Origin: Saprospiraceae bacterium
GTDB lineage: Bacteria > Bacteroidota > Bacteroidia > Chitinophagales > Saprospiraceae
Length of the DNA stretch: 64,000 nt
NCBI GenBank assembly: GCA_022448955.1
Contig: JAKVCU010000067.1
Span: 1 to 64,000 of the forward strand
Reading direction: 5' to 3'
Under the pieces are notes generated by a model, which had not been told where the DNA came from, searched no databases, and worked only from the letters and a program-made list of their open reading frames with translations. Shown here one piece after another: positions 3,425-25,316 of the stretch; position 1 is the first letter of the stretch; each line of letters opens with the position of its first letter. The translations under genes were made by a program, and so were the position numbers.

Positions 3425-6400
3425 ATGAGACATTTATTATTAATGTTGTCGTGCTGGCTTTGCTATGCACCTATCTTAAGGGCACAAATCACTCCAAAAC
3501 TATTGGGAAATCAAATCCAAGCCCAAGCATTTATTCAAGAAAATTTCGAAGGACAGCCTGCTTTATCCAAAATGACAGAAATCCTAAAAGACAATCCCTC
3601 TGGTCAATGGGAAGTCATCGAATCTTCCACACAATGGCAGTTTTTCTTAGACCAGCAGCTCATGTTTAACTTTGGTATAGAAGACCAAATTAATGCTGAT
3701 GGACTTTACTGTGGTACATCTCCTACATTTTATGCTCATCAGGTAGATGTTCGCCATCCTACTTTGAGTAAAACCTTTTCTCGTTATCAGGTATTCCAGC
3801 TAGATGCTCAGGCTATTTGGGATTTTGCGAAAGCAGAAAATGATGGAAAATTCAAGTTTAATTTGATGCTTGCTAACCACAAATGGCCGATTGATCTTCG
3901 ACCAAATGATTTTTTTGCTGAAAACTTAAAGATTAAAGTCTTAAGTAGAAATGGCATCCAATACCAAGAGATATCTAATTATTTCTACGAAGGTACTGTG
4001 GGAGGAAAGCAGGAAGACCAAGCAAGGTTTACTATTGCACCAGATCATATTATGGGGTTGGTTCAGAAAGGGGAGGAGGAGTTTATGTTAGAACCACTTC
4101 CTTCTTTTATTGGGCAAAAAGGAGAAGGCCTTTATGTACTTTATAAAACTTCCGATGTATTATCTAATCCTGAATGGTCATGCGGTTCTGTCGAAGCAGA
4201 GAAACATCATGTTAGAACTCATCATCATGATCATTCAACTAATCGTATGCCTGATCCTGGTTGTTATGATGTAACAGAATTAGCTTTAGCAGCAGCTTAT
4301 GATATGGTGGAGAAGTTTGGAACAATAGGGGCTACAGCAGCTCATTTATTTGAAATAACGGCATCAATGGAACTACTTTTCGAAACCTTCGATTTGGACT
4401 ACAAAATTGTTGATATTGTTATTCCAAGCTCAGAAGCATCAGACCCTTGGTCTACCAGTGCCTTTATGGATATTCTACTTCCTGATTTTGCTACGTGGGG
4501 GAATACTGGAAGTAATTTTGAACCTCACGATATAGGCCAATTGTGGGTGGCAAGAAATGTATTTAGAGGTTCTGTCGAAGCTCCAGAATTTGGACTGATT
4601 GGAAGAGCTGATGGAATTGGTGTGGTGTGTACGGCTGATCGCTACAATGTCTGTGAAGATTTTGATGCTTCTATATCCTGCTTGCGTTCTTTGAGTGCTC
4701 ATGAAATAGGGCATTTGTGGGATGGAATTCACGGCGATGCTACCGAGGGGGTAACTATTATGAGTCCTACTATTGTTTGTGCAGCAACTGCTTTTACAGC
4801 AGCTAATCAAACCAATATTCAAAACCACATTAATTCTAGAGCTTGTTTAGAAGAAGATTGTTGCAGATTGATTGTGGATTGCAGCAATATTATTGATCAA
4901 GATTTGGATTGTCGGTCTGATCTTCCACCTGTTGATTTAGATCTTCCCATAATCAGTGAGGCTTGTGGTGTGCCTGCTGTGAGCGTTTTAACAATTATAC
5001 CTAGTAATTCTGGATGTCCAGGTAATGAGGTATTGATTACACGCACTTATTTTATACAAGATGATGGAGATTTATTCCAATGTTATCAAGAATTTACAGT
5101 GGAAAGTACAAATGGGCCCTCTGCTTCATGCCCAATTACCGAGGTTGATCTTGATGCAGACTGTAATTACTCTCTTGAGAATTTGACCAACTTGGTAAAT
5201 GCAACTGCGGAATGTAACGATTTTAGCATTAGTGTAGCTCAAATCAGTCCTTCTCCCGGAACAGTTTATAGTGGAGAGCAAACAGTCAATGTTTCTATGG
5301 AGGTTACGGATGAATGTGGTAGAACAGATAATTGCAATATTTTGGTTATTTTAAGAGATAATACCCCTCCAATAATTAATCAATGTGATGGAGGTTTTGT
5401 AGATTTTAATGGAGAAGAGAGTATCCCTTCTTCTGATGCTATTGCTTTGGATGTAGAGGATAATTGTGGTGTGGCATCTGTTACTTATGATCCTCCAACT
5501 ATTTTCTGCGAAGAATTAGGGGATGATATCATTGTGACCGTTGAAATTACAGATATTTATGGAAATACGAGTGTCTGTTCTCCTATTGTTACGGTTGATG
5601 GTCTTCCATGTGGTTGGATGAATACAGACGGTATTGGGTGTATTGGAAATAATGAGGCAGATTATGATGTACCTACCGAAACATTCACTTTAACGAGTGA
5701 TGGTTGTACGCCGTCTTATCCATACATTTCTGATAATCAAAGCTTCATCAAATACGAAATGTGTGGTGATGGTTATATTAAAGCATATGTGGACCAAATT
5801 AATGGTCATGCTTACGCAGGGGTTGAGCTTCGCAATAGCATCGCAGCAAATGCTAAGAAAGTGGCGATGGGAACCAATACGGTAAATAGACTAATTAGAA
5901 TAGCAAGGGTATTAGAAAATTATCCAGCATGGCCACAGCAGGTATTTTCTCTAGATAAGTTCTGGGTAAAAATTGAACGTTCTGGAAATATTTTTAGGGC
6001 CTATGCTTCACCTGACGATGTGATATATTTTCCATATTTATTCCAATTTATCCCAATGGATGAATGTACTCAAGTAGGACTATTTGTCTATAGTTCTACT
6101 CCAGGTGATGTTGTAACTGCAGATTTTACAAATGTGGAAGTTGTGCTTGGGACACCATTTACTGCAGGTACACCGAGCGATATAGAGCAAAACATAGCAC
6201 AGCAGCAAAGCTTGAATATTGGGCTTACGCCAAATCCAGCTAGAGATGAAGTCCTGTTAAACCTGCATAGTTTCCTCGGAGAAGATTTGATGATTAGTAT
6301 TTTCAATATTCAAGGTCAATTGATGGAGCATATAGCGTTGGATAAGGTAGAAGAGGCTACTGAAGTGTTTGCTGTAGATCATTTACCGGAAGGTACCTAC

Positions 6401-9599: not shown

Positions 9600-11015
9600 A
9601 TGATATATAGATCGTTGTTCAACCGAATGTTAGTTCTTCTGTCTTTACTAGTGTTTTCACAGACTTTGATGGCACAAGAGGCAGCTGTTGACATTGAAGC
9701 AGGGAAAGTCCTTTTCCGTAATAACTGTGCTTCATGTCACAATAAGAACATGAAAGATGATATGACTGGTCCTGCACTCGGAGGTTTAGAAGAGCGCTGG
9801 GCAGACTACCCAAGAGAAGACCTGTACAGTTGGATTCGTAACTCTCAAAAGTTGATAGGTGAAGGGCATCCTCGGGCTACAGAATTGTGGGCAGATTGGG
9901 GTCCAGCTATCATGGGAAATTTCAACCTTAAAGATGATGAAATTGAAAATATCATTGCTTACATCAATGATGTAGTTAATAATCCTGTAGTTGTAGGAGG
10001 ACCTACTGGAGACGGTGATACTGCTGGTGGAGCAGTTGCAGCCACAGATTACACTTCATGGTATATTGTTCTAGCTGTTATTCTTGGTCTTTTAGCCTTA
10101 GTATTGGCACGTATTCTTTCTAATCTGAACTACATGGTTCAAGTGCGCGAAGGCAATGCACCAGCTCGCCGTCAAACGATTGCTGAAATGTTGACAAGTA
10201 AAGGAGTGATTGCTTTTGTACTTTTCGCTTTAGTTGTATTAGGTGGTTATACAACGGTAAATAATGCCATATCCTTAGGTCGTCAACAAGGATATCAACC
10301 AGAACAACCGATCAAGTTTTCTCACGCAACCCACGCTGGCTTACAGAAAATCGATTGTCAGTACTGTCACGATGGTGCTCGTCGTTCTAAGCATTCTGTG
10401 ATCCCTGCTGCAAATACATGTATGAATTGCCACAAGGCAATTAAAGTAGGTTCTCAATATGGAACTGCTGAGTTAACAAAAATTTATGCTTCAATAGGTT
10501 ATGATCCAACTTCTGATAAGTACATCGACAATTACGAGTCTTTATCTCAAGATGAGGTTTCAAAAATTTACAAGAATTGGATTAGCAGTAACCACATCAA
10601 AGAAGGAAAAGAAGGTGATCCTGAAGAGGTAGCTAACGATCAATGGGACGCTATCGTAGAAGCATTGACTGATCCTACAGTAGGTGATAATACAGTACAA
10701 GGTCCAATCGAGTGGGTACGTATTCATAACTTACCTGATCACGCATACTTCAATCACGCTCAGCACGTATCAGTTGGTAAAGTAGAATGTCAGACTTGTC
10801 ATGGTCAAGTTGAAGAAATGGAAGTTGTTGCACAGCATGCTCCATTATCTATGGGATGGTGTATTAATTGTCACCGTCAAACGGAGGTACAGTTCGCAGA
10901 TAATGACTATTACAAGTCTTACGAAAATTACCACAAGGAAATCGCAAACGGTGAAAGAGACAAAGTGACAGTAGAGGATATCGGTGGTTTGGAATGTCAG
11001 AAATGTCACTACTAA
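9600..11015 (+). CDS. actA: Alternative complex III subunit A, multihaem cytochrome c (ActA)
   Basis: 471 residues with a cleavable signal (ending LMAQ, about 25). Six CxxCH haem motifs: 43-47 in an N-terminal monohaem domain, then 253-257, 274-278, 397-401, 421-425 and 466-470 forming the pentahaem part. The two domains are separated by membrane segments near 153-175 and 203-220. ActA passes electrons within the quinol:acceptor oxidoreductase that replaces the bc1 complex. As far as I recall, the added N-terminal monohaem domain is usual for Bacteroidota ActA. First gene of actABCDEF. Confidence 0.9.
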   Translation: MIYRSLFNRMLVLLSLLVFSQTLMAQEAAVDIEAGKVLFRNNCASCHNKNMKDDMTGPALGGLEERWADYPREDLYSWIRNSQKLIGEGHPRATELWADWGPAIMGNFNLKDDEIENIIAYINDVVNNPVVVGGPTGDGDTAGGAVAATDYTSWYIVLAVILGLLALVLARILSNLNYMVQVREGNAPARRQTIAEMLTSKGVIAFVLFALVVLGGYTTVNNAISLGRQQGYQPEQPIKFSHATHAGLQKIDCQYCHDGARRSKHSVIPAANTCMNCHKAIKVGSQYGTAELTKIYASIGYDPTSDKYIDNYESLSQDEVSKIYKNWISSNHIKEGKEGDPEEVANDQWDAIVEALTDPTVGDNTVQGPIEWVRIHNLPDHAYFNHAQHVSVGKVECQTCHGQVEEMEVVAQHAPLSMGWCINCHRQTEVQFADNDYYKSYENYHKEIANGERDKVTVEDIGGLECQKCHY

Positions 11016-11086: not shown

Positions 11087-14000
11087 ATGAAAAACAAAAA
11101 GCAAGCAGTTTGGGTTGGAGTAGATCAAATCAAAAATACTCCAGCTTATCAGGAAGCCACAAAGCAAGAATTCAACGAGTTGCCAGTAATCGATCAAATG
11201 GCCGATAGGAAAGCAATGAACGTAGAAACCAACCGTAGAGATTTCTTAAAGTATCTTGGGTTTGGTCTTGGTACTGCAACCATTGCTGCTAGTTGTGAAA
11301 TTCCAGTGAAAAAGGCGATTCCTTATGTAATTAAGCCAGATTCCATAGTTCCTGGTGTTGCTACTTACTACGCATCTACTTTCGTCCAAGGTGGCGACTA
11401 TTGCCCCGTTTTGGTTAAAACTCGCGAAGGTCGTCCAATAAAAATTGAAGGTAATACACTTTCCCCAATTACATTTGGTGGCACATCTGCAAGGGCTCAA
11501 GCAAGTGTATTAAGTTTATATGATACTAGTCGCTTCGAAGGACCTTTTAGCATCGCTGAAGGGAAAGTATCCGAAAAAATGACTTGGGAAGCAACTGACC
11601 AAGCAATCATGAGTAAGCTGAACGCAAGTTCACAAATTCGAATAGTTAGTACGACTATTCTAAGTCCTACCACTAAAAAAGTTATCGCTGATTTCACGGC
11701 GAAATATCCTAATACTAAAGTGATCACTTATGACGCTATGTCATCTTCTGCTATGCTTCAAGCCAATGAAGCTACCTTTGGACAAAAGGTGATACCGAAT
11801 TACCACTTTGACAAAGCAGAGGTCATTGTAAGTTTTGATGCTGATTTCTTAGGAACGTGGATCTCCCCAGAGGAGTATTCTGTTCAATACGTAAAGAATC
11901 GAAAAATAACAGACGTAAAGAAAGCTAAGCTTTCTCGTCATATTCAGGTGGAAAGTCAGATGAGCCTTACGGGTTCAAATGCGGATAATCGTATTCTGGT
12001 TAAGCCATCTGAGCAGGGGGCAGCTATCCTTGCATTATACAATGCATTGGGTGGAAATGCTAGTGGACCAAAACTAGATGCGAAGAAGACAGCTAAAATA
12101 AAAATGATAGCTGATGAGTTGAAAGCTGCAAGCGGCAAAGCACTAGTAGTTTCTGGTTCTAATAGTATGGCAGAGCAGGTACTTGTAAATGCCATCAATG
12201 ACTTACTTGCGAGTTATGGAAATACTATTTCGTTTGCTAATGCTTCTCTACAGCGTCAGGGAATTGATGCTGATATGCAAGCATTGATTAAAGACATGAA
12301 CAGTGGTCGTGTAGATGCAGTATTAATCATGGATGGAGCAAACCCAGCTTATGATCTTCCAAACTCAGATCAATTTATTGCTGGTTTATCTAAAGTTGGT
12401 TTAAAAGTTTCTTTTGCTGCAATTCCAGACGAAACAGTTGTTAATTGTGACTATGTTACGCCTACCAATCATTATCTGGAAAGTTGGGGTGATGCTGAGG
12501 CAAAAAGAGGACAGTACTCTTTAATACAGCCAACTATTGCTCCAATATTTGAAGCAGTTGGAAGAGCTGGTACACGTCAAGCAGAGGCAAGTTTGTTATC
12601 TTGGTCTGGCAATCTTCCTGAAGGTGATCAAGCATATATGACTTACCTAAAGAAACACTGGGAGGAAGTAGTTTTCCCTCAGCAGTCAGAATATACTACA
12701 TTCCAAGTTTTTTGGGATAACGCATTGCATAATGGTGTATTTAATGTTGAAATGGCTAGTGTGGAGCCTGTGTTCCAAGCTGATATAAATACTTATGCTT
12801 CAAAAATTGCTAAACCATCTCCAGAAGGGACATTAGAGATTAGCTTCTTTGAGACTGTGAACATGGGAGCTGGCCAATATGCGAATAACCCATGGTTGAT
12901 GGAAATGCCTGATCCAATTACACGTTGTGTATGGGGTAACTATCTGGCTATTCCGGTAATGTGGGATGGTGGAAATGAATTTTCTTCTTACAAAAACTTA
13001 AATGCTAGCGAATTTTATAGCGAAGCAGATAAGGTAGATGTTGAAATTGAAGGAGTGAAACAAACTGCGACCGTTATTCGTCAGTTTGGCCAAATGAGAG
13101 AAACCTTTGCTTTAGCAGCGGGCTACGGAAGAACCCTTACCGGAGCAGCTGGAAAAGCACTGGGCGAAGATATAGGTGTAAATGTATTTCCTTGGATGTC
13201 AATTGATGAAGATGGAAATACGCAGTATTACGCCAAAGATGTAAGTGTTTCGGATAGAGTAGGGAAAGATTTGGAGTTTGCTTGCGTACAATACCACCAT
13301 ACAATGGGAGTGACGGCAAGAGACGAAAGTGGCGAAGTCGTTAAGGCGGAGAGTGGCGAACCATTAAACGTAGATGAGAAAACTTCAATGACCATTGGTG
13401 CAGGTTATCAAGGGGGATTAGTAAATCGTTCTATCATTTATCAAGATTCTCTAGACCACTTGGACGACTTAGTACACCACATTGAAGAGAAGCGTGCAGA
13501 AGCACAAAAATTAAATAGCAAAGGCCTTTATCCACTCGAAGAATATACAGACAAGTTTTATAGCCAAGGGCATCATTGGGTAATGCATGTTGACTTAAAC
13601 TCTTGTACAGGCTGTGGAGCTTGTCAGGTAGCCTGTGTTGCAGAGAATAATGTTCCTGTGGTTGGTAAGAAAGAAGTACATCGTCATCACGAAATGACTT
13701 GGTTACGCATTGATCGTTACTACTATGGAGATTATGAAAACCCAAATGTAGTTTACCAACCCATGTTATGTCAGCATTGTGATAACGCTCCTTGTGAGAA
13801 TGTTTGTCCAGTAGCTGCAACGAATCACTCTTCAGAAGGTTTGAATCAAATGACCTACAACCGTTGTATCGGTACTCGTTATTGTGCCAACAACTGCCCT
13901 TATAAAGTACGTCGTTTCAACTGGTTAGATTATACCACTGCAGATTTATTCGCTTACAACGAAGATAGGCTAAATGGGGAAGAAATTCCATTTGGTGCAG

Positions 14001-14335
14001 ATAACCTTACACGTATGGTCTTAAACCCAGACGTAACGGTTCGTTCTCGGGGTGTAATTGAAAAGTGTAGCTTCTGCGTACAACGTATTCAAGAAGCAAA
14101 GCTTACTGCTAAGCGAGAAGGTCGTGCCTTAGGAGGCAATGATGTTAAGCCAGCATGTCAAACAGCTTGTGGTACGGGTGCAATTGTTTTTGGTGACCGC
14201 AACGACAAGGATAGTGAGGTGGCTAAGTTAATTGAGAACCCACTGAACTATTTAGTTCTTGAGGAAATCAATGTACAATCTTCTGTTTATTACGCAGCGA
14301 AAGTAAATAACAGAAAAGAGGAATTAGACGCATAA
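11087..14335 (+). CDS. actB: Alternative complex III subunit B, molybdopterin-like/iron-sulfur protein (ActB)
   Basis: 1082 residues, a fusion of a molybdopterin-oxidoreductase-like domain (roughly 90-760) and a four-cluster ferredoxin domain (roughly 835-1060). A Tat-type signal is visible: NRRDFLKYLGFG near residue 50. The ferredoxin part begins with Cys840-x2-Cys843-x2-Cys846-x3-Cys850 and continues with CQHCDNAPCENVC, CIGTRYCANNCPY and CSFC...CQTACG clusters. In characterised ACIII the molybdopterin domain holds no cofactor and the Fe-S clusters take electrons from menaquinol. It is membrane-associated on the periplasmic side. Same operon as actA. Confidence 0.93.
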   Translation: MKNKKQAVWVGVDQIKNTPAYQEATKQEFNELPVIDQMADRKAMNVETNRRDFLKYLGFGLGTATIAASCEIPVKKAIPYVIKPDSIVPGVATYYASTFVQGGDYCPVLVKTREGRPIKIEGNTLSPITFGGTSARAQASVLSLYDTSRFEGPFSIAEGKVSEKMTWEATDQAIMSKLNASSQIRIVSTTILSPTTKKVIADFTAKYPNTKVITYDAMSSSAMLQANEATFGQKVIPNYHFDKAEVIVSFDADFLGTWISPEEYSVQYVKNRKITDVKKAKLSRHIQVESQMSLTGSNADNRILVKPSEQGAAILALYNALGGNASGPKLDAKKTAKIKMIADELKAASGKALVVSGSNSMAEQVLVNAINDLLASYGNTISFANASLQRQGIDADMQALIKDMNSGRVDAVLIMDGANPAYDLPNSDQFIAGLSKVGLKVSFAAIPDETVVNCDYVTPTNHYLESWGDAEAKRGQYSLIQPTIAPIFEAVGRAGTRQAEASLLSWSGNLPEGDQAYMTYLKKHWEEVVFPQQSEYTTFQVFWDNALHNGVFNVEMASVEPVFQADINTYASKIAKPSPEGTLEISFFETVNMGAGQYANNPWLMEMPDPITRCVWGNYLAIPVMWDGGNEFSSYKNLNASEFYSEADKVDVEIEGVKQTATVIRQFGQMRETFALAAGYGRTLTGAAGKALGEDIGVNVFPWMSIDEDGNTQYYAKDVSVSDRVGKDLEFACVQYHHTMGVTARDESGEVVKAESGEPLNVDEKTSMTIGAGYQGGLVNRSIIYQDSLDHLDDLVHHIEEKRAEAQKLNSKGLYPLEEYTDKFYSQGHHWVMHVDLNSCTGCGACQVACVAENNVPVVGKKEVHRHHEMTWLRIDRYYYGDYENPNVVYQPMLCQHCDNAPCENVCPVAATNHSSEGLNQMTYNRCIGTRYCANNCPYKVRRFNWLDYTTADLFAYNEDRLNGEEIPFGADNLTRMVLNPDVTVRSRGVIEKCSFCVQRIQEAKLTAKREGRALGGNDVKPACQTACGTGAIVFGDRNDKDSEVAKLIENPLNYLVLEEINVQSSVYYAAKVNNRKEELDA

Positions 14336-14396: not shown

Positions 14397-15803
14397 ATGA
14401 GTGCAACAGTATCTACGATACGCCAACCATTGATCGAGGGAGGAAAAACGTATCATCAGATTACAGAAGACATTTGTACACCAACGGAGCGCACACCAAG
14501 TACTGCATGGGTTATTGCCTTCTTATTTGCAGTAACAGGCTTGGCGGTTTATGTATTCTGTTTGGCTTGGACGATTTGGAACGGTATTGGTACTTGGGAT
14601 TTGAACCGTACCATCGGTTGGGGTTGGGATATTACCAACTTCGTTTGGTGGGTAGGTATTGGTCACGCCGGGACCCTAATTTCAGCCATTCTTTTACTTT
14701 TCCGCCAGAAATGGCGTACTGGTGTAAACCGTGCTGCTGAGGCGATGACGATCTTTGCCGTAATTTGTGCGGGTCAGTTCCCACTAATCCATATGGGGCG
14801 TCTTTGGTTAGCATTTTTTATCTTTCCTTATCCAAATACAAGAGGACCACTTTGGGTGAACTTTAATTCACCACTGCTTTGGGACGTATTTGCGATCTCT
14901 ACTTACTTCACCGTATCTCTTTTATTCTGGTACACAGGTCTAGTACCTGATTTTGCGACTATTCGGGATAGAGCCAAAGGGATTCGCCGTAAGTTGTATG
15001 ATTTCTTAGCTTTTGGATGGACAGGATCTGCAAAGCATTGGCAACGTTGGGAAAGTTTATCATTAGTGTTAGCTGGCCTAGCTACACCATTGGTACTTTC
15101 TGTTCACACGATTGTATCTTTTGACTTCGCCACTTCCGTAATACCTGGTTGGCATACCACGATCTTCCCACCTTACTTTGTAGCGGGTGCGATTTTCTCT
15201 GGTTTTGCAATGGTACAAACACTGATGTTGTTGACTCGTAAAGTGCTTAATCTAAAAGAATACATCACTCTTGAGCATATTGAGAGTATGAATAAAGTAA
15301 TTTTAGCTACAGGTACAATTGTAGGTGTAGCCTATCTTACAGAGTTATTTATCGCTTGGTACTCCGGTTACATCTATGAGCAGTATGCTTTTTATAATCG
15401 TGTACTTGGGCCTTACTGGTGGTCATACGTAGGTATGATGGCTTGTAATGTGATTTCTCCTCAGGTTTTCTGGGTGAAGAAATGGCGCCGTAGCATTTTT
15501 GTCACCTTCTTCATGTCTATTTTCGTGAATATTGGTATGTGGTTTGAGCGTTTCGTGATTATCGCGACTACGCTTGCGCGTGACTACTTACCATCAAGCT
15601 GGAGTTACTATACACCAACTTGGGTAGAGATAGGATTATTTGTAGGAACACTTGGTTTGTTCTTTACTTTATACTTAATCTTCTCTCGTGTAGCACCTGT
15701 TATCGCGATTGCAGAGGTGAAAAGTATTTTGAAGTCTTCTGGTGATCAGTACGCTGGTCCAAATGCTGCTCATCAACATGCAGCTCATTCAGAAGCTCAT
15801 TAA
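14397..15803 (+). CDS. actC: Alternative complex III subunit C, NrfD-type membrane protein (ActC)
   Basis: 468 residues, polytopic with about ten hydrophobic segments. It resembles NrfD/PsrC quinol-binding membrane anchors: GIGHAGTLISAILLL, then GQFPLIHMGR, and VLSVHTIVSFDFATS. ActC binds menaquinol at the periplasmic side and docks ActB. The C-terminal tail is His-rich (HQHAAHSEAH). Placed between actB and actD as in other Bacteroidota. Confidence 0.93.
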   Translation: MSATVSTIRQPLIEGGKTYHQITEDICTPTERTPSTAWVIAFLFAVTGLAVYVFCLAWTIWNGIGTWDLNRTIGWGWDITNFVWWVGIGHAGTLISAILLLFRQKWRTGVNRAAEAMTIFAVICAGQFPLIHMGRLWLAFFIFPYPNTRGPLWVNFNSPLLWDVFAISTYFTVSLLFWYTGLVPDFATIRDRAKGIRRKLYDFLAFGWTGSAKHWQRWESLSLVLAGLATPLVLSVHTIVSFDFATSVIPGWHTTIFPPYFVAGAIFSGFAMVQTLMLLTRKVLNLKEYITLEHIESMNKVILATGTIVGVAYLTELFIAWYSGYIYEQYAFYNRVLGPYWWSYVGMMACNVISPQVFWVKKWRRSIFVTFFMSIFVNIGMWFERFVIIATTLARDYLPSSWSYYTPTWVEIGLFVGTLGLFFTLYLIFSRVAPVIAIAEVKSILKSSGDQYAGPNAAHQHAAHSEAH

Positions 15804-15857: not shown

Positions 15858-16388
15858 ATGAAGAAAGGAGCAAACGAAGTTTTATTCGGTCTTTATGATG
15901 ATGAAGAAATTTTGCTAAAAGCAGTAAAACAGGCAAAAAATGATCATCTAGATATCATGGATGTATACACGCCATTTCCTGTTCACGGCTTAGATCCAAT
16001 TTTAGGATTGTCTGAAAGTCGTTTACACGTTGCTGGTTTCATCTATGGTGCCATTGGGTGTTTATTTGGGTTTTTATTTATGACATGGGTATTTACTCGT
16101 GATTGGCCAATTATTTTTGGTGGAAAGCCTTATTTCTCTGCACCAGCTTTTATTCCAATCACTTTTGAGTTGACTGTATTGTTTGCAGCAGTAGGTATGG
16201 TTGTTACCTTCTACGTGATCTGTGGAATGGGCCCTGGCACTATCAATCCTACTTTAGATGATAGAATCACAGACGATAAATTCTGCATTGCGTTTAATAC
16301 AAATGATGCTAACCAAGATGCTATCGATAGGTTAAAAGGATTCTTTAGTGCAACAGGTGCATCTGAGGTGAATACGAAAACGATTTAA
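15858..16388 (+). CDS. actD: Alternative complex III subunit D (DUF3341, ActD)
   Basis: 176 residues. A soluble N-terminal part of about 60 residues (ending in PFPVHGLDPILGLSESRL, a family hallmark) is followed by two membrane helices (about 56-76 and 98-120) and a C-terminal soluble tail. ActD is a small structural subunit on the cytoplasmic side. Gene order actC-actD-actE is conserved. Confidence 0.9.
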   Translation: MKKGANEVLFGLYDDEEILLKAVKQAKNDHLDIMDVYTPFPVHGLDPILGLSESRLHVAGFIYGAIGCLFGFLFMTWVFTRDWPIIFGGKPYFSAPAFIPITFELTVLFAAVGMVVTFYVICGMGPGTINPTLDDRITDDKFCIAFNTNDANQDAIDRLKGFFSATGASEVNTKTI

Positions 16389-16418: not shown

Positions 16419-17375
16419 ATGAAAAATATAAGGTTAACTCTAATTACTCTCGTAGCAGCTTTGGTATTGTACTCTTGTGCACCAGCTGAGGGTGATTATC
16501 CAGGGAGTGAATATATGCCCGATATGGGGCACTCGTTAGCAGTAGAAGGAAATGTTTATACTTACTACTATTACAATACTTGGGATAGTGCGAGTGTGAT
16601 TAAATTAAAAGACTTAGCGAATCCAGGTTTGCCAACAAATGGAACGGTACCACGCGGATATGCAGGAATCGGTTTAGCGGATGCAAAACATCATACGGAT
16701 ATGATGAAAGCTTTACGTGGTGAGGATAGAGTGAATTCGATGCCAGTTCCAGTAAATGGTAATGTCCCTTATTACTACGAAGACACGGAAGAGGAACGTA
16801 CACGTGCTATTGCAGAAATTATCGATAATCCTTTCCCGATTACAGCTGATGGCTTAGAAAGGGGAGAAGATTTGTACAATAAGTTCTGTGGAATCTGTCA
16901 TGGAGAAAAAGGAGATGGTTTAGGTTGGTTAGTAGCAGAAGAGAATACCAATGCAAAATACCCAGCTGCACCAGCTAACTTTTTATTAGACGATCACGCT
17001 AATTCTTCTAATGGTCGCTACTATCATGCGATCATGCATGGTAAAAACGTAATGGGAGGTTATTCTGATAAGGTTTCTTACGAAGAAAGATGGCAAATTA
17101 TCCACTGGATTCGTGCATTACAAGCTAAGGATAAAAAAATGGCTTACAACGAAAACGAAAATACACTTAATCCTTTATTTGGAATGCCAAATGTACAATA
17201 CCTTGCCATGATGGGAAGTGCAATTAATCATGATGATGAAACACATACAGAAGGGGAACATCATTCTGATGATGCACATCATTCTGATGAAGCTGGCCAT
17301 GATGATGGGCATCATGAAGAAGATAGTCATCATAATGATGGCGATCATGGGCATGGCGGTTCAGGAGACCACTAA
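16419..17375 (+). CDS. actE: Alternative complex III subunit E, monohaem cytochrome c lipoprotein (ActE)
   Basis: 318 residues. A lipoprotein signal ends in VLYSC (Cys20). One haem motif, CGICH, lies at 157-161, and an axial Met is probably in NVMGGY near 212. ActE is the exit point for electrons from ACIII. The last 48 or so residues are an acidic/His tail with about 14 His (for example GHDDGHHEEDSHHNDGDHG), unusual for a cytochrome and matched by a His-rich loop in ActF. Metal binding or storage is a guess. Confidence 0.9.
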   Translation: MKNIRLTLITLVAALVLYSCAPAEGDYPGSEYMPDMGHSLAVEGNVYTYYYYNTWDSASVIKLKDLANPGLPTNGTVPRGYAGIGLADAKHHTDMMKALRGEDRVNSMPVPVNGNVPYYYEDTEEERTRAIAEIIDNPFPITADGLERGEDLYNKFCGICHGEKGDGLGWLVAEENTNAKYPAAPANFLLDDHANSSNGRYYHAIMHGKNVMGGYSDKVSYEERWQIIHWIRALQAKDKKMAYNENENTLNPLFGMPNVQYLAMMGSAINHDDETHTEGEHHSDDAHHSDEAGHDDGHHEEDSHHNDGDHGHGGSGDH

Positions 17376-17423: not shown

Positions 17424-18812
17424 ATGAACCAATTCACATTTGAAGCAAGACAAAAAGCAACCTTAGGAGGATTTATGATTCTAGGTTTGTTGTGTATGGG
17501 ATTGACGGCCATAGGGGATGACGGTCATTACACACGGCTATGGTCAAACTATTTGCATAACTCTGTATTCTTCACAGGCATTGCATTATTCTCCTTATTT
17601 ATTATCTCGGCTTTTACAACAGCTTGGGCTGGTTGGTACAGCCAGTTCAAACGTATTTTCGAAGCATATTCTTTATTCCTTATACCGGGTTTGGTATTGA
17701 TGTTAGTGATTGTCGCAGGACTTTGGGGAGGAATGCATCATCTTTACCATTGGGCTGACCCTAATACACTCGATCCAAATTCAACACATTATGATCCAAT
17801 TCTAGTAGGAAAGTCTTCTTTCTTAAATGCAAATTGGTATACTTTTGGTACACTAGTCTTTATGGCTATCTGGATTTTCTTTGCATGGAAGATGCGTCAA
17901 ATTTCTCTGGATGAGGATACAAACGGAACGACAGACTGGAACCATCACCATAGATTGCGTATCTGGGCAGCAGCCTTCTTGCCAATTGCTGGTTTTACAA
18001 GTGCAGCAGTAGTTTGGCAATGGGTAATGTCAGTAGATTCACACTGGTACTCCACCCTATTTGCATGGTATTGTGGTGCAAGTTGGTTCGTGTCAGCTAT
18101 TGCTCTAGGAATTATGTCTTTAGCATGGTTAAAGTCTAAAGGGTATTACGAGCGTGTAAGCTCAGAACACCTTCATGACTTAGGTAAGTTCTTGTTTGCA
18201 TTCAGTATCTTCTGGACTTACTTATGGTTCTCGCAATTCATGTTGATTTGGTACGGAAATAATGGTGAAGAAACAGTTTATTTCTTTGAAAGAATGAATA
18301 ACTATCCTGTATTATTTTATGGGAACTTAGCTATCAATTTCATTCTACCATTCTTTATCTTGATGCGTAATGATACAAAGCGCAAATATGGTACCTTGAT
18401 TTTCGCTTCTATCCTAGTATTATTTGGCCACTGGCTGGATTTCTTCTTGATGATTAAGCCTGGTGTTTTACATACAAAGCATGAAATGAGCGGCCATCAT
18501 GGTGCTGGTCACGGCGATGCTGGACATCATGGGACAGATCATGCAGCAGACGCAGGCCATCATGTAGCAGATGCTGCTGGGCATGGTGCAGATCACGCTG
18601 CAGATGCAGCTCATGGCGTAGCAGAAACTGCAGCACATCATGCATCATCTGCATTTGAAGCTGGATTCTCTTTACCTGGATTGCTAGAGGTGGGTACTTT
18701 CTTAGGTTTCTTAGCTTTCTTTTTGTATATGTTTTTACATAACTTATCTAAAGCTAATTTAGAACCTAAAAATGAGCCATATTTAGGAGAAAGTTATCAT
18801 CATCACGTATAG
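17424..18812 (+). CDS. actF: Alternative complex III subunit F, membrane protein (ActF)
   Basis: 462 residues, about ten membrane segments, related to ActC. Motifs include HHLYHWADP (105-113), WQWVMSVDSHWYSTLFAWY (198-216) and LFGHWLDFF. Between the last two helices lies a loop of about 57 residues (350-406) with 15 His and many Ala/Asp/Gly, and the extreme C-terminus is YHHHV. ActF is described in other Bacteroidota as a quinol-binding-like membrane subunit. It ends the act genes. A 118-base gap follows before coxB. Confidence 0.92.
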   Translation: MNQFTFEARQKATLGGFMILGLLCMGLTAIGDDGHYTRLWSNYLHNSVFFTGIALFSLFIISAFTTAWAGWYSQFKRIFEAYSLFLIPGLVLMLVIVAGLWGGMHHLYHWADPNTLDPNSTHYDPILVGKSSFLNANWYTFGTLVFMAIWIFFAWKMRQISLDEDTNGTTDWNHHHRLRIWAAAFLPIAGFTSAAVVWQWVMSVDSHWYSTLFAWYCGASWFVSAIALGIMSLAWLKSKGYYERVSSEHLHDLGKFLFAFSIFWTYLWFSQFMLIWYGNNGEETVYFFERMNNYPVLFYGNLAINFILPFFILMRNDTKRKYGTLIFASILVLFGHWLDFFLMIKPGVLHTKHEMSGHHGAGHGDAGHHGTDHAADAGHHVADAAGHGADHAADAAHGVAETAAHHASSAFEAGFSLPGLLEVGTFLGFLAFFLYMFLHNLSKANLEPKNEPYLGESYHHHV

Positions 18813-18930: not shown

Positions 18931-20451
18931 ATGACAGCATTAACGATTATTTTATGTCTTATACTCCTTGTAGTAATTATCGTTCAGATTGGTAAAGTTA
19001 CTGAGCTTGCTGCAAAAATACGTGGTGAAGAAGAAGTTCAGGAACGTTCTAATAGAACCCAAGCATCTTACATGATGATCTTTATGGTTGTCTTCTTAGT
19101 TGCTTCTGTTGTGTCGGCATATTACTACAAAAATTGGATGTTGGGGTATGGCCCTCATGCTGCAGCATCGCAACATGGCGGTTCTCTTGATTATCTTTTT
19201 GACATTACCTTATTCTTTACAGGTATTGTATTTATTGTTACTCAAGTACTTCTTTTCTACTTTGCTTGGAAATACAAATCGCAGAAAGGACGGGTAGCAA
19301 AGTTCGTTCCTCATGATAACCGTCTAGAGGTAATTTGGACGATCATTCCTGCCGTTGTAATGACATTCTTAGTAGTGGGTGGTCTGGATGTATGGAATGA
19401 AGTAATGGCTGATATCCCAGAAGATTATGTTTCTAAGTTGGTTCCAGAAGCTGAAAACGAGTATATTGAGATTGAAGGTACCGGTTATCAGTTCGCTTGG
19501 CACCTCCGTTATCCTGGTCCTGATGGCAAATTAGGGACACGTAACTTCAGAAAGATTGATGCGACGAACCCACTGGGCCAAGTTTGGACGGATGAAAAGA
19601 ATATAGATGATTTTCATCCAAGTGAGATTGTTTTGCCTGTTGGTAAAAAAGTGCGCGTACGTATCACTGCTCGTGACGTGCTGCATAACTTCTATTTACC
19701 ACACTTTCGTGTAAAAATGGATGCGATCCCTGGCCTTCCAACTTACTTTGTATTCACTCCAGAAAAAACGACAGAAGAGTATCGTCAATCATTGAGAGAA
19801 TATCCAGAATACCAGCAACCAGATCCAGAAGACCCAGAAAAGCAACTTTGGGAAACTTTCGACTATGAGTTAGCATGTGCAGAACTTTGTGGTAGTGGTC
19901 ACTTCTCAATGCGTCGTGTGGTGCGTATTGTTTCCATGGAAGAATACAAAGCTTGGTTAGAAAATCAACAATCTTATTATCTAAGTTCTATCCGTGGTTC
20001 TGATAGTGATCCATTTAAAGATCAATTACTGGATTTCGAAATTAGCGAGCGTAAGCAAGAGTTTGATGATGCACTTGAGCAGGCGCTTAGTGCAGTTGAA
20101 CAGAATGCCAAAACCATTCAGTTTAACTATGTTAACTTTGAAGAGGGTTCCGCAGATTTGACGTCATTGTCGAAATATGAATTAGACAACTTAGTTGAAG
20201 CTTTAAATAAATATGATAATATGACATTAGAATTAGCAGGCCATACGGATAATACAGGTGATCCTGACTCTAATATGGCGCTTTCTGATGATCGAGCTAC
20301 AGCTGTTTATAACTACTTAACATCTAAAGGTATCAGTGATAATCGCCTTACACATCTTGGTTATGGGCAGACTAGACCAGTAGATACCAATGATACCGAT
20401 GCAGGTAGAGAGAAAAACAGACGAACAGAATTTAAAATCCTAACTCAGTAA
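18931..20451 (+). CDS. coxB: Cytochrome c oxidase subunit II fused to a C-terminal OmpA domain
   Basis: 506 residues. The N-terminal region has two extra helices (1-20, 47-65), then the two COX2 helices (about 90-113 and 135-155). The CuA domain carries His252 in LHNFYLPHF and Cys316, Cys320, His324 and Met327 in CAELCGSGHFSM. After a linker with a coiled-coil look (about 340-395) there is a full OmpA-type peptidoglycan-binding domain (396-506). It has LELAGHTDNTGDP, then LSDDRATAVYNYL, then LGYGQTRPV and EKNRRTEFKI, including the Asp440/Arg455 pair that binds diaminopimelate in this family. The frame is continuous with no stop or repeat. The CuA side faces the periplasm, so the fused domain could reach the cell wall. 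A TAAATTTG -7-like box lies at 18881-18888. Confidence 0.92.
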   Translation: MTALTIILCLILLVVIIVQIGKVTELAAKIRGEEEVQERSNRTQASYMMIFMVVFLVASVVSAYYYKNWMLGYGPHAAASQHGGSLDYLFDITLFFTGIVFIVTQVLLFYFAWKYKSQKGRVAKFVPHDNRLEVIWTIIPAVVMTFLVVGGLDVWNEVMADIPEDYVSKLVPEAENEYIEIEGTGYQFAWHLRYPGPDGKLGTRNFRKIDATNPLGQVWTDEKNIDDFHPSEIVLPVGKKVRVRITARDVLHNFYLPHFRVKMDAIPGLPTYFVFTPEKTTEEYRQSLREYPEYQQPDPEDPEKQLWETFDYELACAELCGSGHFSMRRVVRIVSMEEYKAWLENQQSYYLSSIRGSDSDPFKDQLLDFEISERKQEFDDALEQALSAVEQNAKTIQFNYVNFEEGSADLTSLSKYELDNLVEALNKYDNMTLELAGHTDNTGDPDSNMALSDDRATAVYNYLTSKGISDNRLTHLGYGQTRPVDTNDTDAGREKNRRTEFKILTQ

Positions 20452-20511: not shown

Positions 20512-22368
20512 ATGAATGATGTAGTAACAACAACGACTTATGATGAAGATGTGTTGATTCAGGAGCTTGGCTATGATGATCATTTTCATGACCATCATCA
20601 CGGTGACAAGTATCAGTCCAACTTTATCATGCATTACATTTTTAGCATGGACCACAAGATCATTGCACGCCAGTTTTTGATTACTGGTATGTTTTGGGCG
20701 GTCATTGGTGGTTTGATGTCTTTAGTATTTCGTTTACAATTAGGCTTTCCAGAAGAAAGTATGGCTTGGTTAAAGCCTGTTCTTGGAAAGTGGATCGTAT
20801 TAAATGATGCTGGTATCGGTACATTAGCTCCAGAGTTTTATTATGCTCTGGTGACGATGCATGGTACAATTATCGTATTCTTTGTACTGACTGCAGGTCT
20901 AAGTGGTACATTCAGTAATCTCTTAATTCCATTACAGATTGGTGCGCGAGATATGGCATCGCCTTTCCTTAATATGCTTTCCTATTGGTTCTTCTTTTTG
21001 GCAGGTGTTGTAATGTTTGCATCGCTGTTCTTGAGTACTGGACCGTTTTCTGGTGGTTGGACGGCTTATCCTCCTTTAAGTGCACTACCTCAGGCCTCCA
21101 CAGGCTCTGGTGCTGGTATGACTTTATGGGTAACAAGCTTAGTATTCTTTGTTGTTTCTGTCTTACTGGGTGGTGTTAACTACATCACAACGGTATTGAA
21201 TATGCGTACAAAGGGTATGACGATGTGGCGTATGCCGTTGACGATTTGGGCCTTCTTTATTACCGCTATTATAGGTCTTTTATCTTTCCCTGTATTGGTA
21301 TCCGGTTTATTGATGGTAATGATGGATAGAGGTCTAGGTACTTCATTCTTCCTTAGTGAAATCTTTATTGGGGGTCAAGCATTAGAACATGTTGGTGGTA
21401 GTCCAATACTCTATCAGCACTTGTTCTGGTTCTTAGGGCACCCTGAAGTATATATTATTATTTTGCCAGCTATGGGTATTGTGTCAGAAGTTTTATCTGT
21501 ACATGCGCGTAAGCCGATCTTTGGTTATAAAGCCATGGTTTACTCCATCTTGGCAATTGCATTCTTATCATTTATTGTTTGGGCTCACCACATGTTTATG
21601 TCAGGTGTAAACCCATTCATCTCTAACTTCTTCGTAATCTTTACCCTGATTATTGCAGTACCATCTGCAGTAAAAGTATTTAACTGGATTACGACACTAT
21701 ATGGTGGTAATATCAGATTCAACTCTGCGAACTTGTTCGCTATCGGTTTCGTTTCGATGTTTATCTCTGGTGGTTTGACAGGTATCTTCTTAGGTAACTC
21801 TGCTATCGACATCCAATTGCACGATACTTACTTCGTAGTGGCTCACTTCCACATCGTAATGGGTATTGCGGCATTCTTCGGTATGTATGCCGGTGTCTAT
21901 CACTGGTTCCCTAAGATGTTTGGTCGTTTTATGAACGAAACCTTGGGTAAAATCCACTTCTGGGTAACAATGATTGGTGCTTACGCAATCTTCTGGCCAA
22001 TGCACTATATTGGTATGGCAGGTGTACCTCGTCGTTACTACAGCTTTGATAGCTTCCAAGCATTTTCTCATTTCTCTGAATTAAACCAATTCATCACTAT
22101 TGCAGCAATCATTGTATTCGCAGCACAGGTGTTAATGGTAATTAACTTCTTCTACAGCATCTGGAGAGGAAAAGTCGTAACAGAGAAAAATCCATGGGGT
22201 GCAAGTACACTAGAATGGACAACACCCATCAACGCTGGTCACGGTAACTGGGAAGGAAATATCCCTGCTGTTCAACGTTGGCCTTATGATTATGGTAAAG
22301 ATGGTAAGGAATTCATTCCTCAAATCGTACCATTAGCAGAAGGTGAAAAAGATGGTGGTGACCATTAA
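20512..22368 (+). CDS. coxA: Cytochrome c oxidase subunit I
   Basis: 618 residues, twelve or so helices. Metal ligands are recognisable: MHGTIIVFF (haem a His), FLGHPEVYIIILP (CuB His and cross-linked Tyr, with the Glu of A1-type D-channel enzymes), WAHHMFMSG (two CuB His) and HDTYFVVAHFHIVMG (haem a3 and haem a His). The N-terminal 35 residues are unusually rich in Asp and His (DDHFHDHHHG). It reduces O2 to water and pumps protons. In operon with coxB, 60 bases apart. Confidence 0.96.
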   Translation: MNDVVTTTTYDEDVLIQELGYDDHFHDHHHGDKYQSNFIMHYIFSMDHKIIARQFLITGMFWAVIGGLMSLVFRLQLGFPEESMAWLKPVLGKWIVLNDAGIGTLAPEFYYALVTMHGTIIVFFVLTAGLSGTFSNLLIPLQIGARDMASPFLNMLSYWFFFLAGVVMFASLFLSTGPFSGGWTAYPPLSALPQASTGSGAGMTLWVTSLVFFVVSVLLGGVNYITTVLNMRTKGMTMWRMPLTIWAFFITAIIGLLSFPVLVSGLLMVMMDRGLGTSFFLSEIFIGGQALEHVGGSPILYQHLFWFLGHPEVYIIILPAMGIVSEVLSVHARKPIFGYKAMVYSILAIAFLSFIVWAHHMFMSGVNPFISNFFVIFTLIIAVPSAVKVFNWITTLYGGNIRFNSANLFAIGFVSMFISGGLTGIFLGNSAIDIQLHDTYFVVAHFHIVMGIAAFFGMYAGVYHWFPKMFGRFMNETLGKIHFWVTMIGAYAIFWPMHYIGMAGVPRRYYSFDSFQAFSHFSELNQFITIAAIIVFAAQVLMVINFFYSIWRGKVVTEKNPWGASTLEWTTPINAGHGNWEGNIPAVQRWPYDYGKDGKEFIPQIVPLAEGEKDGGDH

Positions 22369-22473: not shown

Positions 22474-23370
22474 GTGGCTTTAAGAACGATAGAAGGTAAG
22501 TGGACACAGATATTGATGCAGAGATTGAAGGATTTTCAATTGCTAGTCAAACTTAGGCTATCATTGACCGTCGTTTTTTCTTCTGTTATGGCGTTTTTGA
22601 TTGCATCGAGTGGAAGTATCGAATGGCAGCATATTTTTATATTAGGTTTAGGAGGTTTCTTGGTAACAGGAGCTGCAAATATTTTAAACGAAGTACTCGA
22701 AAAGGACTTTGATAAACTCATGAAACGAACGGCTGACCGCCCGCTTGCTGCCGGTAGAATGCAAGTCGCTGATGCGGTAATGGCTGCTGGTTTTATGAGT
22801 ATGTCCGGAATTACATTGCTTGCTTTGTTTAATCCATGGACGGCTTTTCTGGGAATGTTATCTCTGGTAACTTATTCCTTTGTCTATACACCGATGAAAC
22901 GCATTTCTCCCACTGCAGTGGTAGTAGGAGCTATTCCTGGTGCATTACCAACCTTAATCGGGTGTGTGGCGGCACAAGGAGAATTGACTTTATTAGGCTG
23001 GTCTTTATTTGCTATCCAGTTCTTATGGCAATTTCCACATTTCTGGTCAATTGGTTGGTTAGGATTTGAAGACTACAAAAAAGCAGGTTATAAACTATTT
23101 CCCGAGAAAGATGGAAAACAGGACACAAGCCCTGCATTACAAGCTTTTGTATATGCTCTATTGTTGATTCCTACTGGTTTATTACCTTATTATCTTGGAG
23201 CAAGTGGCATCGTATCGGCTATTTTAGTAGGTATAATGAGCGTAGCTTATGCTTGGTTTGCTTTGGGATTCTACAGACAAAACGATCGAAAATCGGCTTT
23301 ACAATTGATGTTTTTCTCTTTTATTTTTATTCCAGTATCGTTAATTGTATTGTACATCGATAAATTATAA
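22474..23370 (+). CDS. ctaB: Protohaem IX farnesyltransferase (haem O synthase)
   Basis: 298 residues with a GTG start. An ATG 14 codons later (22516, MQRLKDFQL) fits the usual family N-terminus better and may be the true start. UbiA-type prenyltransferase with about eight helices and the Asp-rich prenyl-diphosphate motif in NEVLEKDFDKLMKRTADRPL, followed by YTPMKRISPTAVVVGAIPGA. It makes haem O for the oxidase. Placed between coxA and the subunit III genes, as in many Bacteroidota. Confidence 0.93.
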   Translation: MALRTIEGKWTQILMQRLKDFQLLVKLRLSLTVVFSSVMAFLIASSGSIEWQHIFILGLGGFLVTGAANILNEVLEKDFDKLMKRTADRPLAAGRMQVADAVMAAGFMSMSGITLLALFNPWTAFLGMLSLVTYSFVYTPMKRISPTAVVVGAIPGALPTLIGCVAAQGELTLLGWSLFAIQFLWQFPHFWSIGWLGFEDYKKAGYKLFPEKDGKQDTSPALQAFVYALLLIPTGLLPYYLGASGIVSAILVGIMSVAYAWFALGFYRQNDRKSALQLMFFSFIFIPVSLIVLYIDKL

Positions 23371-23375
23371 ATATT

Positions 23376-23960
23376 ATGAATGCAGGTGCAGTGACAGAAA
23401 TTAGAAATTCAAGAAGTAAAATCCATCCTAAGCAGTTTGCCTTGTTAATAGCATGTGCCAGTATTATGATGATGTTTGCTGCTTGGACTAGTGCCTACAT
23501 TGTTCGTCAGGCAGCAGGTAATTGGCTGGAGTTTAGGATGCCTGATTTGTTCTTTGTAAGCACTGCTGTAATCTTATTGAGTAGCCTTAGCTTACATTCT
23601 TCATATATCTCTTTTAAAAGAGGAAATGAACAAATGTATAAATTGCTACTTGTGACAACCTTTATTTTGGGTATTGCTTTCCTAGTATTACAATACATGG
23701 GATGGCAAGCTATGATCGAAATTGGCGTACCATTAAAAACTAATCCTTCAGGGGATTTTGTATATATGATTTCAGGGGCACATGCCCTACATATTCTAGG
23801 AGGAATTGCTGTGTTAATTGTTGCAATGCTTCATGCATTTATTCTGAAGTTTAATCCAACCCCAGCAAGAAAACTCCGCTTTGAATTGACATTAACTTAT
23901 TGGCATTTCGTAGATTTGCTGTGGGTTTATTTATTGTTATTTTTGACCCTTCAAGGTTAA
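23376..23960 (+). CDS. Cytochrome c oxidase subunit III, first copy
   Basis: 194 residues, five hydrophobic segments, short form lacking the first two helices of the mitochondrial type. Family motifs: MISGAHALHILGGIAVLIV and LTYWHFVDLLWVYLLLFL. Only 5 bases separate it from ctaB. It is the first of two subunit III-type genes in a row. Confidence 0.9.
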   Translation: MNAGAVTEIRNSRSKIHPKQFALLIACASIMMMFAAWTSAYIVRQAAGNWLEFRMPDLFFVSTAVILLSSLSLHSSYISFKRGNEQMYKLLLVTTFILGIAFLVLQYMGWQAMIEIGVPLKTNPSGDFVYMISGAHALHILGGIAVLIVAMLHAFILKFNPTPARKLRFELTLTYWHFVDLLWVYLLLFLTLQG

Positions 23961-24016: not shown

Positions 24017-24862
24017 ATGGCAACGGAAACAGTTATGGAGCATGATGTAGACAAGCACGATGATGGTGGTAATGCGTGGTCAGGAGCCAAGTCGCCTTTT
24101 AAGGCCAGTTACGGCAAACTGATGATGTGGTATTTCCTTTTATCGGATGCATTTACATTTGCAGGATTTCTTATCGCATATGGTGCTATACGTTTTAGTA
24201 GTCCAACTTGGCCAGTTCCAGATTTTGTATTCTCGACAGCGCCCTTTGGAGTTCATGACGCACCACTTATTTTCGTTACAATTATGTCTTTCTTATTGAT
24301 CATCTCTTCCGTTACAATGGTGAGAGCAGTACAAGAAGGGCATCGTGAAAATAAGAATGGCGTAGTATTTTGGATGCTTTTGACCATTGTAGGAGGAGCT
24401 GGATTCCTCGGTTGCCAAGCATGGGAATGGAATAATCTGATTGGAACAGAGCACATGACTGTAAACACCAACCCTTTTGGTAGTCATGAGTTTGCTGGTG
24501 AATATTTAGACGAAAAAGGAGGTTCTTTCGATGCAGGTGATAGTTACCTAATTCACGGACATACAGCTGAAAATGGAGAATTCCAATGGGATCAGCGCCC
24601 CGTACGTTATGAAACTGGTGAAACTACTGTAGAACAGTTTGGTCCAAAATCATTCGGTGCATTATTCTTCTTTATTACTGGTTTCCATGGGTTCCACGTA
24701 TTCTCAGGTGTTGTTTTCTTATTGATCATTTGTATCAATGTTGGAAGTGGACTGTATGTCGAAAGAAAAAATGGCTACGAAATGGTAGAAAAGATTGGAT
24801 TATATTGGCACTTTGTCGATTTAGTCTGGGTATTTGTATTCTTAGTGTTCTACCTTTTGTAA
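24017..24862 (+). CDS. Cytochrome c oxidase subunit III, second copy with hydrophilic insert
   Basis: 281 residues. Motifs FITGFHGFHVFSGVVFLL and LYWHFVDLVWVFVFLVFYLL identify subunit III. Compared with the preceding 194-residue copy it has a hydrophilic insert of about 65-75 residues (about 145-215, rich in Gly, Glu, His and Phe) between two helices. Paired subunit III genes are seen in Bacteroidota cox operons; the two may form one unit. Confidence 0.9.
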   Translation: MATETVMEHDVDKHDDGGNAWSGAKSPFKASYGKLMMWYFLLSDAFTFAGFLIAYGAIRFSSPTWPVPDFVFSTAPFGVHDAPLIFVTIMSFLLIISSVTMVRAVQEGHRENKNGVVFWMLLTIVGGAGFLGCQAWEWNNLIGTEHMTVNTNPFGSHEFAGEYLDEKGGSFDAGDSYLIHGHTAENGEFQWDQRPVRYETGETTVEQFGPKSFGALFFFITGFHGFHVFSGVVFLLIICINVGSGLYVERKNGYEMVEKIGLYWHFVDLVWVFVFLVFYLL

Positions 24863-24896: not shown

Positions 24897-25316
24897 ATGG
24901 CAAATGTATCATACGAAGAATCCATCAAGAAAGTATATTGGGGATTGACTTTATTGGCTATCGTTACGCTTGTGGAGGTTGGTGTATCTCTATTGGGTAA
25001 AGGCCATATTATCTCTGGGGCTGAAGATATGATGTGGTTGGTATACCTTACAGGCTTAATCATCATCGTTCTTTCGATATACAAAGCATACTTCATTATT
25101 TACGAATTTATGCATATGCGGTATGAGGTGAAAGGGCTCGCTGTCAGTGTACTCTTACCTACAGCCTTATTAATCTGGGCGATCATTGCTTTTTTCCAAG
25201 AAGGAGATTCTTGGAAAAATCGTCGCCAACAAATTAAGGAGAAAAACCAAGAGAAAATCGATCCACAAGGCATGTATGATGATAGTGATGTTATCCGCCT
25301 TGATGAACTTGGATAA
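24897..25316 (+). CDS. Cytochrome c oxidase subunit IV (prokaryotic type)
   Basis: 139 residues, three helices (about 14-36, 44-68, 80-100) followed by a charged Lys/Glu/Arg tail. The size, topology and position after subunit III match the small CoxD/CtaF-type subunit. It ends the structural genes and is followed by a terminator. Confidence 0.82.
   Translation: MANVSYEESIKKVYWGLTLLAIVTLVEVGVSLLGKGHIISGAEDMMWLVYLTGLIIIVLSIYKAYFIIYEFMHMRYEVKGLAVSVLLPTALLIWAIIAFFQEGDSWKNRRQQIKEKNQEKIDPQGMYDDSDVIRLDELG

Follow-up and report, generated by a model that had tools for sequence, protein, structure and literature searches.

Subunit II of an aa3-type cytochrome c oxidase fused to an OmpA-type domain in Saprospiraceae: a putative peptidoglycan tether for a respiratory supercomplex

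Results

Within the 64,000 nucleotides of Saprospiraceae DNA that were analysed (the window), the gene at 18931-20451 encodes subunit II (CoxB) of an aa3-type cytochrome c oxidase, joined through a linker of about 45 residues to an OmpA domain. In relatives, the same type of domain is carried by ActE, a subunit of the alternative complex III (ACIII) encoded in the same operon, and this pattern of sequences suggests that the whole respiratory complex is tethered to the cell wall. CoxB-OmpA is probably a peptidoglycan tether for an ACIII-aa3 supercomplex, one that would be needed at most once and on either subunit.

Structure of the coxB-ompA gene and its product

The reading frame ran uninterrupted from ATG to stop (506 aa, no internal stop codons), in agreement with the earlier note on this DNA, which had described coxB and OmpA in one continuous frame. 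Three Pfam domains scored above their gathering thresholds: COX2_TM at residues 77-149 (3.1e-11; 43.7 bits versus a cut-off of 22.8), COX2 at residues 231-277 (3.6e-11; 43.5 versus 22 bits), and OmpA at residues 403-497 (PF00691; 1.4e-21; 77.1 versus 27.2 bits, with positions 2-98 of the 98 profile positions covered). Against the NCBIfam CoxB equivalog TIGR02866, the protein scored 128.7 bits in two stretches, under the cut-off of 147.7; it is therefore a divergent subunit II and no equivalog by that model, its identity as subunit II being supported by Pfam, the CuA ligands, the fold, and its place in the operon.

Table 1. Features of the coxB-ompA gene and of the surrounding operon (window coordinates)
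Feature	Position	Strand	Evidence
actA, multihaem cytochrome c subunit of ACIII	9600..11015	+	Pfam cytochrome families; operon order
actB, iron-sulfur subunit of ACIII	11087..14335	+	Pfam Fer4 families
actC, NrfD-type membrane subunit of ACIII	14397..15803	+	Pfam NrfD, 1e-19
actD	15858..16388	+	Pfam ActD, 1.7e-57
actE, mono-haem cytochrome c subunit of ACIII, without OmpA	16419..17375	+	Pfam cytochrome c; phmmer to 6f0k_E, 6lod_E, 6btm_E
actF	17424..18812	+	Position and similarity across loci only; no Pfam match
coxB-ompA fusion gene	18931..20451	+	Single frame, 506 aa; Pfam COX2_TM, COX2, OmpA
Four predicted membrane helices, residues 1-158	18931..19404	+	Hydropathy and model; COX2_TM corresponds to helices 3-4, and helices 1-2 are additional at the N-terminus
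Periplasmic cupredoxin part with CuA site	19459..19962	+	Pfam; ligand residues; superposition on 1ar1_B
Linker, residues 351-395	19981..20115	+	Model; predicted helix 368-387
OmpA-type domain, predicted to bind peptidoglycan, residues 396-505	20116..20445	+	Pfam 1.4e-21; superpositions; conservation; DAP-site D440/N448/L451/R455
coxA, oxidase subunit I	20512..22368	+	Pfam COX1, 1.3e-145
UbiA-type gene	22474-23370	+	Pfam
COX3-type genes, two	23376-23960, 24017-24862	+	Pfam
COX4-type gene	24897-25316	+	Pfam

The membrane part had previously been called a normal four-helix part. Four helices are indeed predicted, with hydropathy peaks at residues 3-21, 45-63, 94-112, and 134-152, and with helices at residues 2-31, 33-65, 81-114, and 130-158 in an AlphaFold model (48-row alignment, mean pLDDT 86.0, pTM 0.70), but only helices 3-4 correspond to subunit II: Pfam and the solved subunits II matched the protein from about residue 66 onward, and helices 1-2 form an N-terminal addition common to the aligned Bacteroidota relatives. 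The CuA residues named in the earlier note (Cys316, Cys320, His324, and Met327) were all present, with H252 and E318 completing the site, and all six ligand positions were invariant across 48 aligned proteins. By analogy with the aa3 family, we take the ligands to be two Cys, two His, one Met, and the Glu carbonyl, provided by the motif CxExCxxxHxxM and an upstream His.

Residues 66-350 of the model superposed on subunit II of Paracoccus (1ar1_B) with a Z-score of 16.3 and an rmsd of 2.3 Å over 209 residues, and residues 382-505 superposed on the OmpA domain of Capnocytophaga (5wtl; Z 16.4). The OmpA part of the model also matched TagL (5m38; Z 15.4), as well as the OmpA of A. baumannii in its diaminopimelate (DAP)-bound (3td4; Z 14.6) and peptidoglycan-peptide-bound forms (3td5; Z 14.9).

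The operon has the order actABCDEF-coxB-coxA, followed by UbiA-, COX3-, and COX4-type genes, so that a full ActA-ActF set adjoins coxB, with ActF assigned by its position and cross-locus similarity only. The window's ActE ends in a His- and acid-rich tail that might bind metal, and similar tails were observed in L196 and L101.

The putative DAP-binding site

Residues D440, N448, L451, and R455 of CoxB align, with equal spacing, to the DAP-site residues of TagL, given as Asp486, Asn494, Leu497, and Arg501 in PMC8253398. The pair D440/R455, which had already been pointed out and is present as stated, corresponds to D271/R286 of A. baumannii OmpA (PMC6572160); the site also includes N448 and L451. 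DapF is present in the host genome, as expected if DAP is made. CoxB-OmpA fell below the cut-off of each Pal/OmpA/YiaD-type NCBIfam family among the 25 of 47 matches listed.

All four DAP-contact residues were kept in 66 of the 67 distinct CoxB-OmpA domains, in 18 of the 21 ActE-OmpA domains, and in 25 of the 26 other OmpA domains examined, counts in which decayed copies are under-represented since the profile used to find the domains was built from intact ones. The sole CoxB-OmpA exception, from a Lewinella (L108), has G at D440. Across 48 proteins, T439, N448, L451, S452, and R455 were invariant, and D440 was present in 90% or more. This conservation, centred on the DAP site, argues against the domain serving mainly for protein-protein contact (dimerisation of the supercomplex, or attachment of a partner in the outer membrane or the periplasm) instead of wall binding. 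Such a role would fit the dimerisation of OmpA through its C-terminus described in PMC6572160, as well as the occurrence of domains without an intact site on the ActE of family f74 and in L089, L090, and L176; we consider it quite unlikely.

These last three loci form a single, Haliscomenobacteraceae-like lineage, whose CoxB ends in a degenerate OmpA-like tail and no longer has the DAP-contact residues. In a profile comparison with the fused proteins, this tail gave an E-value of 7.5e-10 with the linker included, and of 3.5e-4 (probability 37) for the OmpA part alone. An absence of the contact residues in close relatives, which the earlier note would have taken as telling against the fusion's role, was thus observed in this lineage, but nearly all CoxB-OmpA proteins retain them, and this objection too largely fails.

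The pN/pS ratio of the OmpA part ranged from 0.12 to 0.41 in nine out of nine sequence pairs, and was mostly lower for the CuA part (0.06-0.23); because synonymous sites are near saturation, these ratios are just a sign of constraint.

Distribution of the CoxB form

A search of coxB homologues for the domain pair, as proposed in the earlier note, found the fusion to be widespread in the window's family, which the named loci place as Saprospiraceae and close neighbours. CoxB-OmpA aligned over its full length in 72 of the 87 sampled family genomes, its own included, with 13 partial alignments and two genomes without a match (G280 and G293); the 87 also include G301, which is cut by a contig end, and one of the 72 (G213) has a stop codon within the aligned stretch. 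At the level of the order, 283 of 298 genomes had a match at an E-value of 1e-31 or better, and the fusion was also found in at least five genomes from three other families (G088 and G212 in f8, G059 and G072 in f4, G054 in f19). Five RefSeq isolates carry it (L070, L078, L079, L086, and L108), the species being Membranihabitans marinus, M. maritimus, Lewinella sp. W8, Lewinella sp. IMCC34183, and Neolewinella antarctica.

The same junction recurred in dozens of separate assemblies and in the five isolate genomes, with a similar linker length (31-67 residues, median 45, in 66 CoxB-OmpA proteins). That a frameshift, a chimera, or an annotation error had joined coxB to a separate ompA gene is therefore next to impossible, even if frame breaks do occur in the coxB of a few loci (L102, L105). 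An assembly or frameshift artefact is ruled out by the 72 family genomes and the five isolates, and the concern that the OmpA part might be a separate protein fails in the face of an in-frame fusion across many independent genomes.

Outside the order, no CoxB aligned over the OmpA part among the matches listed for the class (about 150 of 232 matching; 345 class genomes), nor in 198 phylum genomes (all 49 matches); an OmpA stretch matching separately and too weakly for the E-value cut would not appear in either set. OmpA was found on CoxB in none of the 17 class loci with long CoxB frames that were read. The extra length lay ahead of the COX2 part in 15 of these frames, and C-terminal tails were found in L150 and L153.

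In class relatives L137-L146 and L152 (e.g., L140:1685-3217, minus strand), the COX2 part begins at frame residue 148-212. In the four loci checked (L137, L139, L140, and L152), Pfam placed a cytochrome c domain ahead of the COX2 part, and in L140 and L152 this leading part of CoxB is similar to the N-terminal region of the window's ActA. Since the N-terminal haem domain of ActA in F. johnsoniae has been proposed to shuttle electrons to aa3 (PMC8552683), the N-terminal cytochrome c on CoxB may represent a further case of ACIII and CoxB having a domain in common. In L143, a separate OmpA-domain protein of 380 aa (5185-6324, minus strand) lies about 2 kb from an OmpA-less CoxB and is possibly an unfused counterpart. 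Two loci labelled as Thermoanaerobaculia (L071) and Streptomyces griseus (L117) contained a Bacteroidota-type CoxB, and are probably mis-binned or mislabelled MAG contigs.

In several close relatives (L042-L045, L101, L170, L171, L173, and L174), the domain was present on neither subunit, and the OmpA domain is therefore dispensable: useful in some lineages, not required. In Phaeodactylibacter xiamenensis (L101), as well as in G014 (L043) and G021 (L044), the C-terminus of CoxB is a short acidic tail.

The ActE form and its relation to the CoxB form

In other members of the window's family (L038, L039, L040, L095, L097, and L098), it is the C-terminus of ActE, encoded in the same operon, that is fused to OmpA. 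The same fusion was observed in families f12, f2, f22, and f85 (L046, L047, L154, L155, L157, L158, and L164-L169), and the ActE form is thus present in the window's family and at least four further families. Wherever coxB fell within the stretch (all loci but L154 and L155, with f74 set apart), it lacked OmpA. In family f74 (L159-L161), the OmpA domain of ActE lacks the D and N of the site, and no coxB was found beside it within the stretches fetched. The linker of ActE-OmpA measured 30-88 residues in 20 of the 21 proteins, and 231 in the remaining one, from a locus with a run of N. In L095, L097, and L098, CoxB ends in a low-complexity tail of 117-159 residues.

Within the order, at least 13 of 298 genomes carried the ActE form, 11 of the 13 listed belonging to f12; this is a lower bound, as G057 (L047) was missed in that survey. 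Within the class, it was found in at least 5 of 295 genomes (f85 and f74), and in the phylum no match spanned both parts among the matches listed (247 genomes).

Both genes were seen at 114 loci: the domain was on CoxB only at 40, on ActE only at 16, on neither at 58, and on both at none. These counts give no estimate of frequency, as the loci were partly picked for having or lacking the domain; some genomes, present in two collections, are counted twice (12 duplicate CoxA sequences), and the degenerate L089, L090, and L176 and the frame-broken L102 are scored as "neither". The carriers cluster phylogenetically, so the lack of overlap rests on far fewer independent events than the counts would imply. 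In all 72 family genomes with CoxB-OmpA, the match to the ActE-OmpA model (408 positions, with the OmpA part beginning at about 300) went no further than position 302, and the frames were no longer than 353 aa; the cut of 1e-50 used in this survey hides separate OmpA pieces, and the longest of these frames (G161, L196; 353 aa) was read and contained no OmpA.

A CoxA tree (quick method, midpoint root, 119 of the 143 distinct rows, with 24 rows, all fusion-less, dropped by hand) placed the ActE form close to the family's base, the CoxB form within the crown, and several losses after that. It required five changes for the ActE label and 13 for the CoxB label, the latter being slightly too high since L102 was labelled as lacking the domain only from its frame breaks. 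Trees of the OmpA domain were based on 110 columns, with AU tests on 68 or 57 of 114 rows. A single clade of all ActE-OmpA domains gave p-AU values of 0.021 (68 rows) and 0.067 (57 rows); a single clade of all CoxB-OmpA domains was not rejected (0.23 and 0.136), nor was one joining the CoxB and ActE domains of the family (0.505; 57 rows). The domain trees are too short to choose between a move within the operon and repeated capture, and we therefore make no claim as to which took place.

The losses within the family implied by the CoxA tree, together with the degenerate copies in L089, L090, and L176, would also be expected if an abundant, promiscuous OmpA domain had been captured by a periplasmic C-terminus and tolerated, with little function. 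The OmpA part has 25 further matches in its own genome, and the frequency of OmpA domains in these genomes makes chance capture easier than for a rare domain. Set against such nearly neutral accretion are the full-length fusion in 72 of 87 family genomes, the binding residues kept in all but one of 67 domains, the signs of purifying selection, and the occurrence of the domain on two different subunits of one system, never on both at one locus; we regard it as unlikely.

Discussion

The reading that we prefer is that of a tether. CoxB is itself embedded in the membrane as part of the oxidase. From the periplasmic side, the OmpA domain would extend into the wall, where it would bind a diaminopimelate side chain. 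If ACIII and aa3 form one body in this organism, a domain that binds the wall, whether carried by ActE or by CoxB, would anchor both; one tether per supercomplex would then be enough, and lineages could place it on CoxB, as in this genome, or on ActE. A single tether serving both complexes would be an economical explanation of why the domain occurs in two places and why no locus was found with it on both subunits. In two relatives, F. johnsoniae and R. marinus, ACIII and aa3 (caa3) have been isolated together (PMC8552683). For the organism studied here, we infer the supercomplex, the binding of peptidoglycan by the OmpA domain, and the benefit of tethering. That benefit would most likely be to hold the complex in place close to the wall, and stabilisation of the supercomplex is another possible one. 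The more general proposition, namely that ACIII-aa3 is wall-anchored by at most one kind of tether, placed alternatively on ActE or CoxB several times, has in our judgement an even chance of being correct.

The earlier note had proposed that the fusion could tie the oxidase, and with it ACIII, to the wall. This idea gains strength, at the level of sequence comparison, from the alternation between CoxB and ActE (none of 114 loci with both), with the amendment that the domain is not always on CoxB. The linker had been singled out for comparison with the distance from membrane to wall: if extended, its 45 residues could exceed ten nanometres, but the model predicts a helix there. A span of over ten nanometres would be enough reach by the dimensions of the periplasm.

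Other observations point away from an essential role. Some close relatives have the domain on neither subunit, and one lineage has a degenerate domain without the binding residues, so that fixing the position of the complex as a general need is not borne out, given L101 without the domain and L089, L090, and L176 without the contact residues. The incomplete site of ActE-OmpA in f74 (three proteins), the G in place of D440 in L108, and the degenerate tails of L089, L090, and L176 likewise weigh against the tether itself.

If the proposal is true, respiration would be held at the wall, and the presence of the domain on either subunit would itself be evidence for an ACIII-oxidase body. The alternative placement on CoxB or ActE constitutes independent genomic evidence for such a body, which to our knowledge is otherwise known from complexes isolated from two species.

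Comparison with known systems

The set of genes found here, ActA-F with an aa3-type oxidase, is the same as that of the ACIII-aa3 of Flavobacterium johnsoniae and Rhodothermus marinus (PMC8552683). The portion of that article at hand does not mention OmpA on ActE or on the oxidase, "ompA" there designating a promoter, and an OmpA domain on CoxB or ActE is likewise unreported in the available portions of PMC8552683 and PMC12487129. In a search of a collection of PMC papers by title and start of abstract, no description of an OmpA domain on CoxB or ActE was found.

Pal, OmpA, and YiaD have an OmpA-type domain with DAP pocket residues, as does CoxB-OmpA. These are outer-membrane proteins or small lipoproteins. 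The flagellar stators MotB, PomB, and MotS are inner-membrane complexes that use an ion-motive force, and an OmpA-type domain at the C-terminus is what holds them to the wall; MotS, MotB, and MotY chains were among the matches of the OmpA part of CoxB. The flagellar stator must be anchored to do work, whereas an oxidase can turn over without an anchor, and the domain is missing in some relatives.

Type VI secretion offers the closest functional parallel: an inner-membrane complex there bears an OmpA/Pal/MotB-type domain with the same four DAP-contact residues. Many of these systems have the wall-binding domain as part of TssL itself, and others have it on TagL or another accessory subunit (PMC8253398). 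The type VI apparatus is an envelope-spanning secretion machine, in contrast to the respiratory oxidase and quinol oxidoreductase described here.

Motors and secretion machines, which need a foothold, are known to be anchored to the wall by OmpA-type domains. No such need exists for a respiratory oxidase, and a conserved tether on it therefore raises the testable question of where and why respiration is held in place. Subunit II and the OmpA domain are each ordinary parts; within the PMC papers searched, what is new is their combination and the placement of the domain on either of two respiratory subunits.
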